Positions 6,212-14,626 of a DNA stretch of 26,203 nt are shown in pieces; positions within the stretch are counted from its first letter, which is position 1, and each line of letters starts with the position of its first letter. Both the position numbers and the translations under genes were made by a program. Source of the DNA: a virus; IMG/VR virus record IMGVR_UViG_3300017730_000067, positions 1 to 26,203 of that record. One strand, given 5' to 3'. The notes below the pieces were generated by a model that ran no database searches, was not told the DNA's origin, and saw only the letters and a program-made list of their open reading frames with translations.

Positions 6212-7675
6212 TTAGGCTGCAATCTTAATGATTTGTGTATTCTTGTTTTGTTTAGGTATATACAAGGTTCTATTTTGTGGTGGTATAATAACTGTATTAT
6301 TATTATCTTGTGCTACTGCGTATATAGTTCTTTGTCTGTTGTAAGCATCTGGGTCAAAATCAAATACAACACCTGTTGCAGTAAGTTGACCTAATGCTAC
6401 TTGTAATCCAACAGAGGTTAAACTTTGTGTTGCAGGGAAAGAAAGAAGTCCAATAGCACCTGTTGCAAAGACACTGTTTAAAACTTCACTAACTTTGGCT
6501 TCTAAGCCCTCAACTTCACCTGCAACAACTACACCTGTTGGAATTACAGAGTTATTAACTTTTAAAGAACCTACACTACCAGAAGCACTAACACCAACTA
6601 ACGTATGTGTTTTACCCACACTAATACTTAAAGTGTTTACCGCACCAGAGCCTTGCACTCCTGTCAATGACAGACTTACATCAACTCCTAAAGAACCTAC
6701 ATTACCTGTAGCACTTACAGAATTTAATGCTTCTGATGTAGTGGTAACTATAGAACCTAAAGCTGTTGTACCAGAAACACCAGTAATACTTTCTGAAATG
6801 TTTACAGATACAGTAGCTACAGCACCAGTAGAACTTACAGAAGATAATTGTTCTGTTACATCAATTTCAAAAACATTTATAGCTACAGATGTAACTATAC
6901 CTGTAGAAGAAACACCTGTAAGACCACTAGCTGTTTTAGTTTGAAGTGTTCCAACAGAACCAGAACCCTGAACACCAACAATGCTTTCACTTACTTTAGG
7001 TTCTATTGTTCCTAAAGAAGAAGTTAGTCCACTGCTTGAAATTACTATGGTAGAAGTTGCAGTAAGTGTAAGTGTACCTAAAGAACCAGTAGCAGCTACA
7101 CCAGAAATTGGAAAAGAAAATCTTGCATCAACAGTATTTACTGATCCAGTGCTGCTTACACTATTAATTTTTTCTGTTACATTTACAGTTACAGAGTTTA
7201 TTTGTCCTGTACCAAAAACACTTGCTAAACTTTCAGAAAACGTAATGGTTACTGTATTTACAGAACCTGTCCCAGACACACCAGTAAGTGTAGATGTATT
7301 ACTATTCTCTACTGTATTTACAGCACCTGTTCCAGACACACCAGTTAATGTAACAGTGTTGCTATTTTCTAGTGTACCTATTGCACCAGTACTTTGTACT
7401 CCTGTAGGTGTTACAGTTAAATTTACAGAGACTGAACTAATACCTGTTGTACCAGAAACACTGCCTAGCTTTTCTTCTGTATTAAAACTTATAGTTCCTA
7501 CAGCACCAGTAGCACTTACAGACCCAAGTCTTTCTGAGATGTCAACTTCAAAACCACCAACAGACAGACCTGCTACTGCAGTACTAGCAGAGACACTACC
7601 TAAAGAAACATCTGGAGATACAGATGAGGATGATACACCAAAGGGAGCTTCAGATAGTGCCGTAAAACCGAACAT
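6212..7675 (-). CDS. 20-residue-repeat tail structural protein
   Basis: A 487-residue protein almost wholly made of about 20 tandem repeats with a period of 20 residues (occasionally 22-25), residues about 26-437. The unit is roughly L-x-S-V-S-x-T-G-x-V-x-T-V-x-V-N-x-x-E-x. Only Ser, Thr, Gly, Val and Asn vary conservatively, and no Cys or Trp is present. A short N-terminal cap (MFGFTALSEAPFG) and a distinct C-terminal segment (TIYAVAQDNN, then PPQNRTLYIPKQNK) flank the repeats. The regular period predicts a solenoid or an elongated beta stack, suitable for a shaft or whisker. It lies between the accessory enzyme cassette and tail adaptor genes. An AAGGAT ribosome binding site precedes the ATG at 7675. 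The fold is inferred from periodicity. Confidence 0.75.
   Translation of the reverse strand: MFGFTALSEAPFGVSSSSVSPDVSLGSVSASTAVAGLSVGGFEVDISERLGSVSATGAVGTISFNTEEKLGSVSGTTGISSVSVNLTVTPTGVQSTGAIGTLENSNTVTLTGVSGTGAVNTVENSNTSTLTGVSGTGSVNTVTITFSESLASVFGTGQINSVTVNVTEKINSVSSTGSVNTVDARFSFPISGVAATGSLGTLTLTATSTIVISSSGLTSSLGTIEPKVSESIVGVQGSGSVGTLQTKTASGLTGVSSTGIVTSVAINVFEIDVTEQLSSVSSTGAVATVSVNISESITGVSGTTALGSIVTTTSEALNSVSATGNVGSLGVDVSLSLTGVQGSGAVNTLSISVGKTHTLVGVSASGSVGSLKVNNSVIPTGVVVAGEVEGLEAKVSEVLNSVFATGAIGLLSFPATQSLTSVGLQVALGQLTATGVVFDFDPDAYNRQRTIYAVAQDNNNTVIIPPQNRTLYIPKQNKNTQIIKIAA
6365..7600 (-). repeat. In-gene array of ~20 tandem 60-base units
   Basis: The repeats code for units like TGVSGTGAVNTVENSNTSTL and SSVSSTGAVATVSVNISESI, spaced 20 residues apart (for example unit starts at residues 51, 71, 91, 111, 131, 151, 171 and 191). 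At the DNA level the copies are degenerate, with many synonymous differences, so the repetition is conserved at protein rather than nucleotide level. The neighbouring pair at residues 111-150 is the most similar and may be the most recent duplication. Confidence 0.8.
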
Positions 7676-7686
7676 TTAGTTTATCC

Positions 7687-8376
7687 TTAGTCTATTTGTT
7701 CATTTATTAGTTTCATTATTTGTTTATTATATCTATTTATTTTAAATCTTTCATAGCAATAAGATAAAGAAGATTTTGGGGAATAAACTTTTAGACTTAA
7801 ACAGCTATGAGCAATATTAACCATAGGCTCTGTAACGGTAAACCTTTTAAATTTAATTTCTTTATTAAAAGTTACATATGCCATAGGTTCTCCTTTTTTT
7901 ATTTCAATAGGATTACCTGTATATATTGATGAAAAACTAATTGGCCTAAACCATTTACTTATGTCAAAAGAACCTGCAATACCAAAAATATCAGACTTAT
8001 GCATAAATGGTGGGTATATGTTTAATATAGTTTTAGTTGGTGCAAACATACATAAATAAAAATCACTTAACCACTGTATTGCATTCGGAGCTCTTTTAAT
8101 ATCCTCTCCTAATTGATCAACCATTAGTATATGGGGATTAGCAGAAGTATTAAAAACTTTATGAGATTTACCTCTAGTAATCTTTATAAGTAAATCGCAA
8201 GGGGTGTTTATTACGTAGTAATCTTTTATAGTATCAGCTATAGAAGGACACTGTAAAAGACCCGTTACGTTATATTTAGCATACTCTTTTTTTATAGACT
8301 TAGTGAGTCTTTCAGGTTCATCTAATAATATCCTGTAAGGGTGTTTGTCGTGTGATCCATATGCTACTATATCCAT
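7687..8376 (-). CDS. DUF6065-like protein of unknown function
   Basis: A 229-residue protein. Recognisable features are a CPSIADTIKDYYVINTP segment (about 43-59), a central hydrophobic part (LSDFYLCMFAP), and HKSDIFGIAGSFDISKWFRP (about 126-145). A GNPIEIKKGEPMAYVTF stretch (about 154-170) follows. The last two motifs, a beta-barrel edge ending in KGEP-x-A-hydrophobic, resemble what I remember of DUF6065 proteins that sit near oxygenase genes in phages; this family match is from memory and not certain. No catalytic residues can be assigned. The start (ATG 8376) lies inside the end of the preceding oxygenase gene (10-base overlap) and has a GAGGG site before it, so it is the last member of the coupled accessory cassette. 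Confidence 0.6.
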   Translation of the reverse strand: MDIVAYGSHDKHPYRILLDEPERLTKSIKKEYAKYNVTGLLQCPSIADTIKDYYVINTPCDLLIKITRGKSHKVFNTSANPHILMVDQLGEDIKRAPNAIQWLSDFYLCMFAPTKTILNIYPPFMHKSDIFGIAGSFDISKWFRPISFSSIYTGNPIEIKKGEPMAYVTFNKEIKFKRFTVTEPMVNIAHSCLSLKVYSPKSSLSYCYERFKINRYNKQIMKLINEQID

Positions 8377-8912
8377 CTTTGACCCTCAAACCAAGCAACT
8401 AAAGAACATCTTGTACCTTTTGTTACAGGAGATACTCTATGGCTTAGATAACTAGGAAAAACAAGGACAGTACCTTTTTGTCTAAGTTTTTCTTTATTGG
8501 GGTTTTCTACTTCTGCAAAACTAAAGTCTCCACCTTCATAGTTTTCCGAATCACTTAGCTGAACTGTTATACTTAACTTCCTATCAAAAGCAGTTTGAGA
8601 AGACCAATTTGTATCAATATGCCAATCATAATGACCATTTTGTTCAGCATGATACAGAGTATATTGTATGTCTGCATAGTTTTCTACTTTAAAACCAAAC
8701 ACATTTCTGTTAGCATTCTGAACTATGTCCCACAAAAAGTTTTTAAGTTCTTTATTTTGAGATAGCCAAGCAACTTCACTAGACCTAGCTTTATTATTAT
8801 CATTAAAAGTTGTAGCTTTATTTACTATCTGTTCTTCAGCTAAATCATGTATTTTATTTACAAGAAATTCATTTACTGCGTTTTCGTATAGTTGCCATAG
8901 TGGTCTATGCAT
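8367..8912 (-). CDS. 2-oxoglutarate/Fe(II)-dependent oxygenase, prolyl 4-hydroxylase type
   Basis: This 181-residue enzyme shows the full facial triad and co-substrate Arg: HYDWHID with H98 and D100, then FPSYLSHRV with H158, and TRCSLVAWFEG with R168. The intervening LSITVQLSD and YEGGDFSF segments are the usual strands of the double-stranded beta helix of the prolyl 4-hydroxylase (P4Hc/PKHD) group. Such enzymes couple oxidation of 2-oxoglutarate to hydroxylation of proteins or small molecules in the cytoplasm. The ATG at 8912 (GAGGGA upstream) overlaps the preceding radical SAM gene by 8 bases. The substrate is unknown; the Gly-Pro-Thr fibre upstream in the operon is one candidate. Family assignment is firm, substrate is inference. 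Confidence 0.9.
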   Translation of the reverse strand: MHRPLWQLYENAVNEFLVNKIHDLAEEQIVNKATTFNDNNKARSSEVAWLSQNKELKNFLWDIVQNANRNVFGFKVENYADIQYTLYHAEQNGHYDWHIDTNWSSQTAFDRKLSITVQLSDSENYEGGDFSFAEVENPNKEKLRQKGTVLVFPSYLSHRVSPVTKGTRCSLVAWFEGQRWI

Positions 8913-9867
8913 AGTATTCCCTCAAATTAAAGTTAGTGCCGATCATATTTCCTATATATCTGTCATCATTACTGTACACTAAAACTTCAGGGTCTTCAAC
9001 TAAAAAATCACATGACTTGCAATAATCAGGGAAATCTTTATTTCTGTGTTGCTCTCTTAATTTATTATAAGCCTTACCATTCCAAACTTCTTTTAAAGTA
9101 TTTGTACTTAAATGCCCTAATACTGCAGCCTCATCATTACCTAAAACCTGACAGCAAGGATGCACTGCTGCTGTATTACCATCATTACCTCCTGCCCTAA
9201 CAACTACATCAGGAGAGAAAGGTCTTCCACATCCTGCTATCTTACCTTTTCTTTTATAATCAGACTCATATACACCAGACCAATTATGCATACGCCAAAT
9301 ATCAACATTCATATTATCAAAAAGAGATTTATATGCTTCTACTTCTACTGGCTCATTATCGTTGTCTAGTATTAAATGATATGCTGCTACTATACAATCT
9401 TTATCTTTAGCATACTCCCGCATATCTTTAGCATTTTGTATAACTAAGTTAAAGAAAGGACTATTCATCCATTGTTTATATGTCTCTTCATTGTAGCCTA
9501 TAATAGAAAACCTAAAAAAGTTAAGACCTGCATCAACCGTTTCTTTCATAAAAGACCCACGCATATTCTTACCATTAGAATATATGTAAGATTTTGCTCC
9601 ATACTTTTTTACGATCTCAATATATCTTGGAAGATTTCTATTTAAAGTAGGTTCTCCTGATCCTTCTAGATTTATAGCCTTTACGTTTTGTTCTGCACAC
9701 TGAGCAACAATATCTTCAAACTGATCTAGTGGCATTTTCCTTAAAAAACCTTTTGGTCTTTTAGGGTCTGTTTGAGGACACATCTTGCAAGTATAATTAC
9801 ATCCACCGTTTATTTCAATAACGGCCCTTTCTAGTTGAGGCATTGTAAGTAAATTATTAACTTTCAT
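8905..9867 (-). CDS. Radical SAM protein with SPASM-type C-terminus (second copy)
   Basis: A 320-residue radical SAM enzyme. The CNYTCKMC motif (C23, C27, C30; CxxxCxxC) binds the SAM-cleaving 4Fe-4S cluster, and LEGSGEPTL (about 68-75) is the SAM-contacting GGE-like strand. Residues about 213-286 hold a SPASM-like set of cysteines (C213, C238, C239, C283, C286) for extra clusters. I place the start at the ATG at 9865-9867, which overlaps the preceding stop as ATGA (9864-9867). The longer frame to 9921 would need a TTG start inside the previous gene and has no clear ribosome binding site. Such proteins often modify peptides, sugars or cofactors by radical chemistry. The substrate is unknown. 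Confidence 0.9.
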   Translation of the reverse strand: MKVNNLLTMPQLERAVIEINGGCNYTCKMCPQTDPKRPKGFLRKMPLDQFEDIVAQCAEQNVKAINLEGSGEPTLNRNLPRYIEIVKKYGAKSYIYSNGKNMRGSFMKETVDAGLNFFRFSIIGYNEETYKQWMNSPFFNLVIQNAKDMREYAKDKDCIVAAYHLILDNDNEPVEVEAYKSLFDNMNVDIWRMHNWSGVYESDYKRKGKIAGCGRPFSPDVVVRAGGNDGNTAAVHPCCQVLGNDEAAVLGHLSTNTLKEVWNGKAYNKLREQHRNKDFPDYCKSCDFLVEDPEVLVYSNDDRYIGNMIGTNFNLREYYA

Positions 9868-10337
9868 TTTGCTATAATAAATCCGTTTAAAGTTTTTCTT
9901 GTCTCTCCCCTTTCTGCACAATAGCTGTGGTAAGTATAATTTTCTTTACCTGCAAAAATAAATGCTCTGTTTGGTTTCCAATCTACTCTACCGTAATAAC
10001 TTTTATCTGGTTTATATAAATCTGTTCCTGTTCCTTTATCTCCAAGATAAACAACAACCGATATTATTTTCTTAACCCACTCATGGTGTATTGGATACTC
10101 ATAAGGTCCGTGTTGAACTGAATAATACCAATCAATTTTCTCAACTTCGTTATAGGGTTTGTGATCTAATTTTTTGCAATACTTAAATATATCAGGAAGA
10201 AAAGATGTATCAGATATAGATAACCTATACTTTGCCCCCTCACCAATAGACTTTCTTTTATTTACTTCTGCTAAGTGGAAGTCATAATTGGTTAAAAAAT
10301 TATCAACAACTATGTGGGGCCAAGGATTATGCTGCAT
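9864..10337 (-). CDS. 2-oxoglutarate/Fe(II) oxygenase-like protein with HxE metal motif
   Basis: A 157-residue protein with the compact architecture of phage 2OG oxygenases: N-terminal PWPHIVVDNFLTNYDF, strands around IISVVVYLGD and RAFIFAG, and a C-terminal TRKTLNGFIIAK. The likely metal ligands are H84 and E86 (in PIHHEW) with distal H137 (YTYHSY). R147 is the probable 2-oxoglutarate salt-bridge residue. Glu in place of the usual Asp is less common but known in cupin-type enzymes. It overlaps the preceding radical SAM gene by 11 bases and the following one by 4 (ATGA). Substrate unknown. Confidence 0.75.
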   Translation of the reverse strand: MQHNPWPHIVVDNFLTNYDFHLAEVNKRKSIGEGAKYRLSISDTSFLPDIFKYCKKLDHKPYNEVEKIDWYYSVQHGPYEYPIHHEWVKKIISVVVYLGDKGTGTDLYKPDKSYYGRVDWKPNRAFIFAGKENYTYHSYCAERGETRKTLNGFIIAK

Positions 10338-11241
10338 AAACCGCCTCGTTTAATTGCATAATAAATGCAACATCAGGTCGTTTGTAGCAAGTTGAACATG
10401 GGCTTTTTGTTCTGCGACCATTTATTAGTTCTGTTCTGTATTCTTTTAGTCCTTCGTCAGTGTTCCAAAACTCTTTCATTGGAACATTATGTATATTACT
10501 AAAATTGTTTTCTTTGCTCCAATCATTACAACAAAGAACGTAATCACCATCCCAATTTACATAGACCATATTAAACGGCTTATGACATATTTTACCCCAT
10601 TGTTTATGTCCTTTATAATCTGGTCTGTTTATATTTTCATCAGGCACAGAACCACCACGATTATTTAAAGCTCTACCTGCTTTAGAGTCTGTCATAATTG
10701 TTTTAGTTTTACGGTCTGAAATTCTTATATCTGGATAACGTAACTTAGCTTCATGGAAACTAATTTTACTTTCATCATATATACTAAAATTTACATCATC
10801 TAGCTGCTTATATAAATCATAATACTTATCTATCCTTGATCCATTGGTGCTAACCTTAATCCATAGATGAGGCATATCAGTATTACGCCTGTGTATTGCT
10901 TTTTCTAGCATCTTGCCAAAATCAGGATGCAAAGAAGGTTCACCACGCCCTGCAAAATGCAGTCTAAATTTATCTGGCTCTTCGGAATAAAGGTTTTTGT
11001 CATTGCTATCTGACCACCCATTTCTTTTTGAGAAATCAAATGTAGCCATTTCATCAAGTATAAGGTCAAAGGTTTCTAAACTCATGTTCTGATTAAGGTT
11101 TGGGTAGCCATGCGCCCGTGGGCAAAAACTACATTTCATATTGCATAGTTCTGTTAAGTGAACCTCTACACACCAGATGAAATCGTCCATCTTAATCATA
11201 TCAGGGTGTAATTCAGTATTAGATTTATACATGAAGTCCAT
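10327..11241 (-). CDS. Radical SAM protein with SPASM-type C-terminus (first copy)
   Basis: A 304-residue radical SAM enzyme with CNMKCSFCPRAHG (C33, C37, C40), an FAGRGEPSLHPD SAM-binding strand (about 97-107), and a SPASM-like C-terminus. That C-terminus contains C219, the adjacent pair C237-C238 in YVNWDGDYVLCCNDW, and C282/C285 in SPCSTC. The W-DG-x-V-x-CC pattern is typical of radical SAM enzymes with auxiliary clusters. It differs substantially from the second copy at 8905-9867, so the two are not a recent duplication and probably have different substrates. ATG at 11241; an in-frame ATG at 11232 is possible. It overlaps the preceding gene by 17 bases. Function beyond radical chemistry is unknown. 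Confidence 0.9.
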   Translation of the reverse strand: MDFMYKSNTELHPDMIKMDDFIWCVEVHLTELCNMKCSFCPRAHGYPNLNQNMSLETFDLILDEMATFDFSKRNGWSDSNDKNLYSEEPDKFRLHFAGRGEPSLHPDFGKMLEKAIHRRNTDMPHLWIKVSTNGSRIDKYYDLYKQLDDVNFSIYDESKISFHEAKLRYPDIRISDRKTKTIMTDSKAGRALNNRGGSVPDENINRPDYKGHKQWGKICHKPFNMVYVNWDGDYVLCCNDWSKENNFSNIHNVPMKEFWNTDEGLKEYRTELINGRRTKSPCSTCYKRPDVAFIMQLNEAVYAA

Positions 11242-12154
11242 TTTCTTTAGTAAATTTCCATGAGTGAAGGTCTACATCTGTAGCCCCTAGCTTGTATAAA
11301 TCACGCCTCTTATTTATTTTCCACTTAAAATTTTCAGAGTTGTAATCATTGACACAAGACTTCCAATACCATGTAAGCCATCTTATCTGTTCCTCTTTTG
11401 GTATTGGTTTTAATTCTAATACACTACTGTCTAGTTCTTTATAGTTAGCCAAAGGCACAATATCACTTATCATACAACGCCTTAAATTTACAGTTGGTTT
11501 TTGTTGCAGCATGGCTTGCAAAGTCATAGCACTATCAACACTTATAAGCATTTCACATTGTGAAACCATTGACATAGAATTGTAGTTTTCTCTTGGAAAA
11601 CAAGTATACTCACTTGTTATCCCCATTTTTTCTACAACTCCCCAAAACGCATCATAGTTTCTAGGTATATTGCTTTGGCTTGATGATGCAGGGTGGCGTT
11701 TAAATACTGTATAAACTTTATTTTTTGTAGCCCACTCAACAAGGGCTACTGTTTCATAGTAGTCTTTAGGGTAAATAAACTGCAAAGGCACAAGAACATA
11801 TGGTCTATCTTTAACCCAAGGCTTATCTGTTTGTAAATATCGGTCATTAGCCCTATTTAAATACTCTTGATATATTTGTTCGTCTGGTTCTGCTTTAAGC
11901 CAATCATCTCTTTGTTTATATTCAGTAATATATAAACCTTTTGAAAACCTTATGTGTTCAAATGCACCAAAGCCACCCATAAATCTGTAGTCAACTTTTT
12001 GATTATTATAGACTTCAAAACATGCTTCTTCGTTATCCCATTGTTCTGCTATACTTAAACAATTTCGTAGCAAAGGAACAAGATGCATTTTTTCTGGGTT
12101 ATGTTTTCTATGCTCAATCCAAAGTGCAACCCAAGCCTCTGCACTTATCGCCAT
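11225..12154 (-). CDS. Capsule-biosynthesis/glycosyltransferase-like protein (KpsC/KpsS-like C-terminal half)
   Basis: A 309-residue protein. The second half resembles GT-B-fold capsule polysaccharide transferases: YVLVPLQFIYPKDYYET (about 119-134), YTVFKRHPASSS (K152, H154, P155), CEMLISVDSAMTLQAML (about 200-216) and KPTVNL (219-224). This order of a VPLQ strand, a K-x-HP loop, then S-x-DS and EAL-like nucleotide-sugar binding elements is what I know from KpsS/KpsC-type proteins. The first half (IEHRKHNPEKMHL and MGGFGAFEH) is not recognised. It overlaps the neighbouring genes at both ends (10 and 17 bases). If active it would transfer a sugar to a host or virion acceptor. The assignment is a resemblance and not certain. 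Confidence 0.5.
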   Translation of the reverse strand: MAISAEAWVALWIEHRKHNPEKMHLVPLLRNCLSIAEQWDNEEACFEVYNNQKVDYRFMGGFGAFEHIRFSKGLYITEYKQRDDWLKAEPDEQIYQEYLNRANDRYLQTDKPWVKDRPYVLVPLQFIYPKDYYETVALVEWATKNKVYTVFKRHPASSSQSNIPRNYDAFWGVVEKMGITSEYTCFPRENYNSMSMVSQCEMLISVDSAMTLQAMLQQKPTVNLRRCMISDIVPLANYKELDSSVLELKPIPKEEQIRWLTWYWKSCVNDYNSENFKWKINKRRDLYKLGATDVDLHSWKFTKENGLHV

Positions 12155-12642
12155 ATAGGGCGACCAAAACCAAATGCAAATCTAGTTTCTTCTGCATAAG
12201 CAGAATGCCAAAAAGGTTTTTCTTTTACAACTTTAAATTTTCTGCAAGTCCAATCATTAGGATCATCATAAGATAGTTGTTGATTTCCATTTTCATCTAA
12301 GTACTTAAAAACACCCTTACCTTTAATATAATATATTCTGTAACCTTCGTTGTCACTATTAGTATGCCAAGGAAGTTGAGTATTTGCTTCCATTCTTGTA
12401 CAATTAGTAACATCATCACACTCTAAAATTTCAGCACACTCTTTAAGTAAACCAGAAATTTCTTTTTCATCATTTTCAAAAAGTGCACCAGAAGCACTTT
12501 TAGGTATGTCCATATGGGGCAAAGGTCTTTTTAAAAACTCATCCAGTGTTAATGTTTTTGTAGGTTTTCTGCTTTTATTTAAACTTATTACTTCTTCTAA
12601 ACGTTTAATAACTTCACCTACTGGTTTGATTATTTCAATCAT
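12145..12642 (-). CDS. 2OG-oxygenase/cupin-like protein with atypical metal motif
   Basis: A 165-residue protein whose C-terminal half has the layout of aspartyl/asparaginyl beta-hydroxylase or related 2OG oxygenases. It contains LPWHTNSDNEGYRIYYIKG (H93), GVFKYLDENG, FKVVKEKPFWHSAYAEETR (H146, R154) and FAFGFG. The usual acid two residues after the first His is replaced by Asn95, with Asp97 two further on. This resembles beta-hydroxylases that use two His ligands, but could also mean altered chemistry. The N-terminal 80 residues are helical and unassigned. Its ATG overlaps the upstream stop as ATGA (12639-12642). Substrate unknown. Confidence 0.6.
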   Translation of the reverse strand: MIEIIKPVGEVIKRLEEVISLNKSRKPTKTLTLDEFLKRPLPHMDIPKSASGALFENDEKEISGLLKECAEILECDDVTNCTRMEANTQLPWHTNSDNEGYRIYYIKGKGVFKYLDENGNQQLSYDDPNDWTCRKFKVVKEKPFWHSAYAEETRFAFGFGRPIWR

Positions 12643-13070
12643 ATAGCATTTGCCTTTTCATAAAGCTGTCTTTTTTCATCATTAGTTATTACTCTGTCAG
12701 CTAAAAAATTAATTACAATATCTTCACCAAGATATACATAGCCATCCTCAAGACGATCTGCCCAATCAGCAGGTCTATCAATATCATCTAAAGGCGCATA
12801 CATTTGCAAATAATCAATAATTTGCCGTAAGTGTCTTTTTGTTCCACAACGTGTGACTTCCTGTTTTACACCAACAGTACCATCTTCACGTATCCATAAA
12901 TCCTCATATTCATCTTCACATCCCTCTGGTATAGTAGGATGAGTCTCAAGATAAATTTCAGTCATAGTTTTTTGACCAACTTTTAATTTATCAAACTCAC
13001 TGTCTGCTAATTTGCCATCTGTTGACATATAGCACAAAGAGTTATCTTCATTGAAATAATACCAAGGCAT
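12639..13070 (-). CDS. Unknown 143-residue acidic protein behind the collagen-like fibre
   Basis: I do not recognise a family. The protein is acidic and starts MPWYYFNEDNSLCYMSTDGK, with a mixed strand/helix middle (LWIREDGTVGVKQEVTRCG). A helical C-terminus follows (HLRQIIDYLQMYAPLDD, then DEKRQLYEKANAI). It begins 8 bases after the fibre stop and is preceded by an AGGA ribosome binding site. It is stop-start coupled to the oxygenase-like gene downstream, so it opens the accessory cassette. From position alone it could be a fibre assembly factor or a protein serving the modification enzymes. Both ideas are unsupported by motifs. Confidence 0.75.
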   Translation of the reverse strand: MPWYYFNEDNSLCYMSTDGKLADSEFDKLKVGQKTMTEIYLETHPTIPEGCEDEYEDLWIREDGTVGVKQEVTRCGTKRHLRQIIDYLQMYAPLDDIDRPADWADRLEDGYVYLGEDIVINFLADRVITNDEKRQLYEKANAI

Positions 13071-13078
13071 TTTTTTTC

Positions 13079-14626
13079 CTAATATGTTCTGTAACGTTTG
13101 CGAAACCCAGAAAAATAAGTTGTATTATCATACTGAGTGGCAGTAAGATCAGTTCTATCTACGCCGCACCAAAGCCAATCATTTTGTTGTGACGCACTAG
13201 TTAAATTTTTAAGACCTTTATCTGTCGTCGAGTAACTACCACTTTGGTAATAGCTGCCATATGCCAGACCACTTATGGAAGCCCCAGACGGTCCTGTTGG
13301 CCCTGTTGGTCCTGTTGGGCCAGTTGGCCCTGTCGGTCCTGCCACAGTACTATCTGCGCCTGACGGACCAGTTGGGCCTGTCGGTCCTGTCGGTCCAGTT
13401 GGGCCTGTACCACCTGCATCACCATCACCACCTGCAGGTCCAGTAGGTCCAGTAGGGCCAGTTGGTCCTGTCGGTCCAGTTGGTCCTGCTGCAATAGCAT
13501 TAGCAATAGTTTGCTTTTCCCATGCACTAGCACTAACATCATATACAGGGATAAGGTCAGAAGACCCTGCATCTGTACCAGTAGAAAATGCAGTAAGGGC
13601 AGTACCTACATTAGCTGCATCTGTGACATCTGAAGATGCTTCGATACCGTCTAGCTTAGTACCGTCTGCTGACAAATCTCGACCATCTACAGTTTGAGAG
13701 CCAGACATGACAATATTGCCTGTTATTGTGCCTCCTGCTTTAGGTAAAGCTGCATCAGCAGTAGTACCTTGTGCAGCAGTTGCATAGTCTGAACTATCAA
13801 ATGCTTTAACTTCAGCAAGATTAGTAACCTCACTGTCCATCAAAGCTCCTGCAGAAGTTACATTAGCTGTATCAGTTACATCAGCAGATGCTTCAATACC
13901 ATTGAGCTTAGTGTGGTCTGCATCAGTAAATACATTAGAGTCTGAGGCTGCTTCTACTGCCGCCCTTATTTCGGCATCAGTTTGATCTGCCGTAGCACTT
14001 GCTTCAATACCATTTAGTTTAGTATGGTCATCATCTGTAAATACATTTGAATCACTAGCAGCTTCAACTGCTGCTCTTATCTCAGCATTAGTTTGGTCTG
14101 CAGTTGCACTAGCCTCAATACCATTTAACTTAGTATGATCAGCATCAGTAAAGACGTTACTGTCGGATGCAGCTTCAACGGCGGCTCTTATCTCTGCGTT
14201 TGTCTGATCTGCCGTAGCACTAGCTTCAATACCGTCTAACTTACTACCGTCTGTAGCAAGGTCACGACCATCTATAGTACCGGGAATAGCAATATTACCT
14301 GATGCATCTTCAAACACTGCTTTATCTGCAGGGTATGTCATAAATATATTTTTAGTACCTGCAGAAAAATCTACAGCATTATTAGAATTAGAACTGGATA
14401 GGATAGTAGTTCTAGCTAAAGTATTACCACTACTAGTATAAGTACCAATACCTACTTCAAACTCATTATCATCACCTTGTTGCTCAATAGCATAGTATGT
14501 GGTGTCGGCATTAGAAAGGGCAGAACTAAAGGTTTTAAACTTAGTTACTGCCCCCCCTAAAGAGATACTACCTGTACCTGTAGTTGTGGTTGTTTCTTTA
14601 ACCCTATCTTTTACGACAAGTGCCAT
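13079..14626 (-). CDS. Collagen-like tail fibre protein
   Basis: A 515-residue fibre. The N-terminus ([20 protein letters not shown] and a WTRTTIL-like [11 protein letters not shown] region) resembles attachment domains of marine phage fibres. Residues 132-242 are three near-identical 37-residue repeats starting [32 protein letters not shown] segment echoes them later. Residues 381-450 are collagen-like Gly-X-Y: six triplets GPT/GPA, a GGDGDAGGT linker, more GPT, a short break (STVA), then GPT again. A compact C-terminal domain (about 451-515, with YYQSGSYST and [10 protein letters not shown]) may be the receptor-binding tip. An AGGGGG site precedes the ATG. A collagen-like triple helix implies a trimer. 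It heads the accessory cassette. Confidence 0.85.
13277..13486 (-). repeat. Collagen-like Gly-Pro-Thr triplet region
   Basis: The region codes for residues 381-450: mostly GPT with single [15 protein letters not shown] and GAD triplets and one four-residue interruption. Pro is always in the X position and Thr mostly in the Y position. Codons vary synonymously (GGN CCN ACN), so the array is protein-conserved rather than a recent slippage product. The complementary strand also reads as Gly-Pro-Val because of the codon symmetry. Confidence 0.9.
13901..14233 (-). repeat. Three tandem 37-residue fibre repeats
   Basis: Three copies start at residues 132, 169 and 206 of the fibre ([20 protein letters not shown] and onward), with a partial fourth at 243. 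Protein identity is nearly complete (changes only such as N/D and A/D), yet the DNA copies differ at many third positions. For example, the same [11 protein letters not shown] is spelled with different Ala, Glu and Ser codons in each copy. Confidence 0.85.

Follow-up and report, generated by a model that had tools for sequence, protein, structure and literature searches.

A prolyl hydroxylase-type oxygenase linked to a collagen-like tail fibre in a marine phage fragment and its relatives

Collagen hydroxylation is seen as a largely eukaryotic trait. In animals, collagen is modified by collagen prolyl 4-hydroxylase (P4H), LH3/PLOD3, and COLGALT1, while the viral collagen-modifying enzymes, mimivirus lysyl hydroxylase/glycosyltransferase and PBCV-1 vCPH, come from viruses that infect eukaryotes. 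Among bacteria, Bacillus anthracis has both a P4H and the glycosylated collagen glycoprotein BclA, whose repeats are rich in Gly-Pro-Thr (GPT) triplets. Here we describe a candidate collagen-modifying enzyme, og181, and a collagen-like tail fibre, both encoded in IMG/VR record IMGVR_UViG_3300017730_000067 (positions 1 to 26,203, hereafter the window), a 26.2 kb piece of a tailed phage whose main genes all lie on the minus strand.

Like the animal system, the phage loci link a prolyl hydroxylase-type enzyme to collagen, and relatives of the window add a lysyl hydroxylase that also carries GT_PLOD and GT25 domains. However, the carriers here are phages, Pro stands in the X position of the Gly-X-Y triplets rather than in Y as in animals, a single fused chain of ~583 aa combines GT25, GT_PLOD, and lysyl hydroxylase, and no lysyl hydroxylase gene is present in the window. 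As for the viral enzymes, vCPH is among the top structural matches of og181, but the two share only 19% identity, and the linked substrate here is a phage tail fibre. In comparison with BclA, which lies on the spore surface, the fibre belongs to the virion, and the enzyme-substrate tie consists of gene linkage and covariation. In peptides, the B. anthracis P4H hydroxylates prolines of both positions, X and Y (PMC8968730), so Pro in the X position can serve as a substrate. Cyanophage 2-oxoglutarate (2OG)-Fe(II) oxygenases of phrog_61 belong to the superfamily of og181; the distant relatives examined, which lie in tail modules, have no collagen neighbours, whereas the og181 group forms the collagen-linked part. 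By analogy, phage collagen and its enzymes look much as if they were a miniature of the animal system. A search of the open-access literature, which leaves preprints and subscription papers uncovered, returned no phage prolyl or lysyl hydroxylase of collagen.

Linkage of the oxygenase to collagen-like fibres

The features on which the comparison rests are the following.

13079-14626, minus strand: tail fibre, 515 aa (PHROG tail fibre matches; alignment with the fibre of relative L164)
13277-13486, minus strand: collagen-like region, fibre residues 381-450 (22 Gly-X-Y triplets, 14 of them GPT, with one STVA break)
8367-8912, minus strand: og181, P4H-like 2OG-Fe(II) oxygenase, 181 aa, with a complete HxD...H...R motif (PF13640, model, and folds)

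The capsid gene lies upstream, and the fibre comes after g160 and g145. It is followed by a cassette of 8 near gapless, mostly overlapping genes: a 143 aa gene, g165, g309, rS304, og157, rS338, og181, and g229. The first-pass annotation, which placed a Gly-Pro-Thr collagen region at 13277-13486 beside its enzymes, had the position right, since it coincides exactly with fibre residues 381-450. The triplet description holds for 14 of the 22, the others being different, and the enzymes do share the gene row of the fibre, although the P4H-like oxygenase is the seventh gene downstream. STVA divides the region into two unbroken Gly-X-Y runs, one of 15 triplets (381-425) and one of 7 (430-450). Pro occupies X in 77% of the triplets and Thr occupies Y in 68%, whereas neither Pro, the Y-position substrate of classical collagen P4H, nor Lys occurs in Y at all. 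Because the codons vary (GGA/GGC/GGG, CCA/CCG/CCT, and ACT/ACA), the stretch is a protein repeat and not a simple DNA repeat. Pfam Collagen (PF01391) matches the short region at residues 381-424 with an E-value of 1.2e-5 and 25.4 bits, below the cut-off of 27.2; the label collagen-like therefore refers to the repeats of the fibre and not to Pfam membership. Several PHROG tail families also match the collagen stretch.

Regarding og181, it scores 59.5 bits against PF13640 (cut-off 27), and residues H98, D100, H158, and R168 are unchanged across 42 sequences. The nearest solved folds to its AlphaFold2 model (pLDDT 93.6) are prolyl hydroxylases, with Z equal to 17.9 for Pseudomonas P4H and Chlorella virus collagen prolyl hydroxylase (4iw3 and 5c5t; root mean square deviation 2.9-3.0 over 164-170 residues). 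According to the model, og181 has the P4H fold, a likeness that by itself shows no function. It matches phrog_61 with an E-value of 3.4e-31, and its relatives in the cultured-phage set are all distant, the best having about 36-42% identity. The absence of collagen beside distant og181 relatives was considered as a refutation of the collagen link and dropped, as the tree puts the window enzyme among the collagen-linked ones. The possibility that og181 is a lysyl hydroxylase was also rejected, since 17 clusters, including that of the window, have no Lys in Y.

Viral loci of the og181 family were clustered at 85% identity, which yielded 50 clusters, and 50 records were searched whole; the contigs are fragments, and the scans give best hits rather than random samples. 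A collagen gene lies near the oxygenase in 43 of the 50 clusters (within 3 genes in 35), on the same strand in all, and the remaining 7 have at most 4.5 kb visible upstream. Scanning from the oxygenase revealed GPT-rich collagen within 8 genes in 61 of 78 new loci and within 3 genes in 51. Among control loci, Pro-rich collagen was found in 0/80 for the capsid scan and in 1/80 for the g145 scan, that one having the oxygenase too. The reverse scan, from GPT DNA in viral contigs, gave 108 loci with a collagen gene, where an og181 relative, when present, is often 15-460 bases off. Where it occurs, the phage og181-type enzyme accompanies a GPT fibre.

Within the lineage of the window, collagen and cassette come and go together. 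The near-identical contig L163 and the relative L164/L165 retain both the GPT fibre and the cassette. L003, with 94% identity over fibre residues 1-305, has a C-terminus without collagen and no cassette, and L005 shows the same pattern. Six others (L006, L007, L008, L020, L026, and L031) pair a GPT fibre with just an og181 relative (~50% identity), a small gene lying next to or between the two. Among 83 closed slots, i.e., fibre slots bounded by g145 and gp77, 6 contain both collagen and oxygenase and 77 contain neither; some slots being near copies, these amount to roughly four independent cases. A fibre is absent from most of the 77, and the fibre-bearing ones have neither collagen nor oxygenase. 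Relatives with a GPT fibre and without the cassette genes were also looked for: the closed slots of this lineage contain none lacking the oxygenase, whereas in unrelated phages only 13-15 of the 108 GPT loci have the enzyme.

Outside viruses, 8 loci on sphingomonad chromosomes, mainly Sphingobium (L477-L482, L484, and L486), repeat this pairing: an og181 relative immediately precedes a collagen gene in which almost every X is Pro. L478 also has a ShlB/TpsB-like secretion gene immediately upstream.

Residues followed by the oxygenase and the lysine enzyme

Across the oxygenase loci (9694 triplets), Pro occurs 4536 times in X and 94 times in Y; a prolyl hydroxylase here must therefore act on X, unlike animal collagen P4H. 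The fraction of Pro in X is at least 0.1 in 42 of 43 oxygenase clusters (p 0.001). The view of the first-pass annotation that a prolyl hydroxylase-type enzyme would need X-position chemistry on this collagen is strongly supported by linkage, gain and loss, and Pro covariation. According to these comparisons, the collagen is very probably the substrate of og181. Given that the oxygenase follows Pro, which is almost only in X, og181 itself is most likely a hydroxylase of X-position Pro in collagen, a claim we hold with good though lesser confidence.

In the largest group of relatives, the gene right after the oxygenase encodes a protein of ~583 aa composed of GT25, then GT_PLOD, then a lysyl hydroxylase domain, and these relatives thus have the GT_PLOD and lysyl hydroxylase domains of the LH3/PLOD type. 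The GT_PLOD match has an E-value of 2e-45 and 155.4 bits (cut-off 27), and mimivirus lysyl hydroxylase matches the C-terminus (1.7e-8). Such proteins, hereafter Lys enzymes, are encoded at the following positions.

L401:8537-10288 and relatives: GT25 + GT_PLOD + lysyl hydroxylase protein
S-CAM9, NC_031922 34413-36254: the same type of protein
CRP-6, MK613348 gp58: the same type of protein

All clusters with Lys in Y (at least 5%) have the Lys enzyme (22/22), and none of those without it do (0/17; p 2e-11); the 5% line was chosen after the data were seen, the values forming two groups (up to 0.01, and 0.11 or more). An independent GPT scan gives 5/9 and 0/96, respectively (p 1.3e-6). On the oxygenase tree, the Lys-enzyme label switches ~12 times, at least 5 of the switches being forced by well-supported branches, so shared ancestry alone does not explain the covariation. 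Lys therefore has its own enzyme, and it is not the target of the oxygenase, which occurs both with and without Lys. In Synechococcus phages S-CAM9 and S-8S55, the oxygenase and the Lys enzyme, the latter annotated as hypothetical or as a plain 2OG oxygenase, adjoin the collagen fibre; both are cultured cyanophages, which puts the proposed reading within direct experimental reach. In Roseobacter phage CRP-6, the Lys enzyme lies beside a Lys-rich fibre. A gene for an FkbM-type methyltransferase, which possibly methylates an added sugar, is found near the Lys enzyme in some phages (L441:10275-10823 and L166-L168).

Three phages with the Lys enzyme and without the oxygenase (L566, which is CRP-6, L562, and L074) have Pro in X of 0.01-0.06 and Thr in Y of 0.45-0.48. 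In L562, only the ends of the oxygenase gene (the start and the last 20 residues) are found at 8972-9054, between a radical S-adenosylmethionine (SAM) gene and the Lys enzyme, at the site that the complete gene occupies in intact relatives; judging from these remnants, the oxygenase is lost by internal deletion. Its collagen has 1% Pro in X, compared with 26% in relative L561, which has the oxygenase. Vice versa, S-8S55 has the oxygenase despite a Thr-in-Y value of only 0.22. Together with prolyl hydroxylases being the closest folds, these cases make it unlikely that og181 acts on collagen at Thr in Y or at some other residue, e.g., creating a sugar site, even though Y is most often Thr in the window fibre and in most oxygenase loci, and the window cassette includes a glycosyltransferase-like gene.

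Several observations weigh against og181 as a collagen prolyl hydroxylase. The Pro-versus-Thr argument stands on three phages; L453/L544 (one contig) combines the oxygenase with a Pro-free collagen; L051 combines a Pro-rich collagen and the Lys enzyme with no oxygenase in its 39 kb record. Most GPT-fibre phages have no og181 relative, and the enzyme is therefore not needed for a GPT fibre. Finally, five marine alphaproteobacterial genomes (L469, L471, L472, L474, and L476) have a 45-48% identical oxygenase and no Pfam collagen match.

Such collagen-free bacterial homologues, as well as the distant 2OG relatives in tail modules, would be expected if the cassette modified another target, such as a sugar of the host surface or a different tail protein, and owed its place to the tendency of tail modules to acquire such genes. 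Genes for radical SAM/SPASM and glycosyltransferase-like proteins are also found in polysaccharide clusters. However, loose linkage of this kind is not expected to make collagen and oxygenase appear and disappear together in one slot, nor to produce the covariation of Lys with the Lys enzyme and the Pro pattern, and we regard it as distinctly improbable. That the fibre collagen works unmodified while og181 targets the same fibre outside its collagen stretch is very improbable: it agrees with most GPT loci having no og181 relative, but leaves unexplained why the oxygenase tracks Pro content and why it is missing where the same fibre N-terminus has no collagen.

Proposed action of the cassette

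As an X-position collagen prolyl hydroxylase, og181 would act in the cytoplasm of the infected cell on single fibre chains before trimerisation, as collagen hydroxylases work before chains trimerise, and would convert Gly-Pro-Thr into Gly-Hyp-Thr (Hyp, hydroxyproline). The modification may in turn stabilise the triple helix of the fibre; that 4-Hyp in Xaa can do so is stated in the title of Bann and Bachinger 2000, cited in PMC4019982. The products of g165, g309, og157, the two radical SAM genes, and g229 would probably introduce additional marks, among them perhaps sugars on Thr.

More generally, the chances appear even that phages carry modular collagen-modification cassettes matched to fibre residues: an X-position prolyl hydroxylase for Gly-Pro-Thr, a fused lysyl hydroxylase/galactosyl/glucosyltransferase for Lys in Y, and a third type (in the window, radical SAM, g165, and g309) adding marks unknown on any collagen. 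Comparative genomics links phage tail fibres to a prolyl hydroxylase-type enzyme and, among relatives, to an LH3-like one, and enzyme content predicts the collagen residues. If the proposal is true, virions bear hydroxylated, possibly glycosylated collagen, the little-studied X position has an enzyme, phage enzymes could be used for modified recombinant collagen in bacteria, and some orphan 2OG oxygenases in marine phages are accounted for.

Remaining genes of the cassette

12639-13070, minus strand: 143 aa protein that travels with the cassette (homologues in L164 and L408)
12145-12642, minus strand: g165, 165 aa, with conserved WHTNS ... WH ... RxxFGF (alignment of six relatives)
11225-12154, minus strand: g309, 309 aa, glycosyltransferase-like, with a C-terminal half of the glycosyltransferase B (GT-B) type (model and Foldseek)
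10327-11241, minus strand: rS304, radical SAM/SPASM enzyme, 304 aa (Pfam; motif CNMKCSFC)
9864-10337, minus strand: og157, 2OG-Fe(II) oxygenase-like protein, 157 aa, HxE variant (PF13640 with an E-value of 1e-4, below cut-off; relatives aligned)
8905-9921, minus strand: rS338, radical SAM/SPASM enzyme, 338 aa (Pfam; motif CNYTCKMC)
7687-8376, minus strand: g229, 229 aa (relatives sit between collagen and oxygenase in other phages)

Searches of Pfam, PHROG, and NCBIfam gave no match for the 143 aa protein. Family searches gave none for g165 either, which is possibly a diverged 2OG/AspH-like oxygenase. Both rS304 and rS338 have CxxxCxxC and a SPASM domain.

The glycosyltransferase-like gene, which the first-pass annotation put two genes downstream of the fibre, is indeed downstream, but as the third gene (12154-11225), with two genes between. 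The AlphaFold2 model of g309 has a pLDDT of 77.6 and a poorly modelled N-terminal half. Foldseek reports KpsC/WbbB Kdo transferases and UDP-GlcNAc 2-epimerases (E-values from 2e-4 to 1e-3), structural comparison gives Z up to 12.8 over 136 residues, covering one Rossmann-like half, and Pfam Capsule_synth matches with an E-value of 0.03, below cut-off. Judging from the model, g309 resembles KpsC and other GT-B enzymes in their nucleotide-sugar half. Its place is in the collagen cassette, since a collagen gene is present on each of the 6 viral contigs that the g309 scan recovered; the og181 copies from g309-type cassettes form one supported clade. That this predicted glycosyltransferase glycosylates Thr of the collagen, as proposed earlier for O-glycans, is plausible, the GT-B-like half and the collagen gene on those contigs lending the idea weak support. 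In cyanophage S-SCSM1 (MK867354 102203-104620), an annotated GDP-fucose protein O-fucosyltransferase is flanked by 2OG oxygenases.

Between collagen and oxygenase, the g229 family and a DUF6065-like protein recur (window 7687-8376; L409:6537-7992). An rS338 relative at L561:5370-6330 has an apparent internal tandem duplication. Finally, positions 6212-7675 of the window encode a 487 aa protein of repeated short units (GVSGTGAVNT-like), which differs in length among relatives and is found in nearly all slots.
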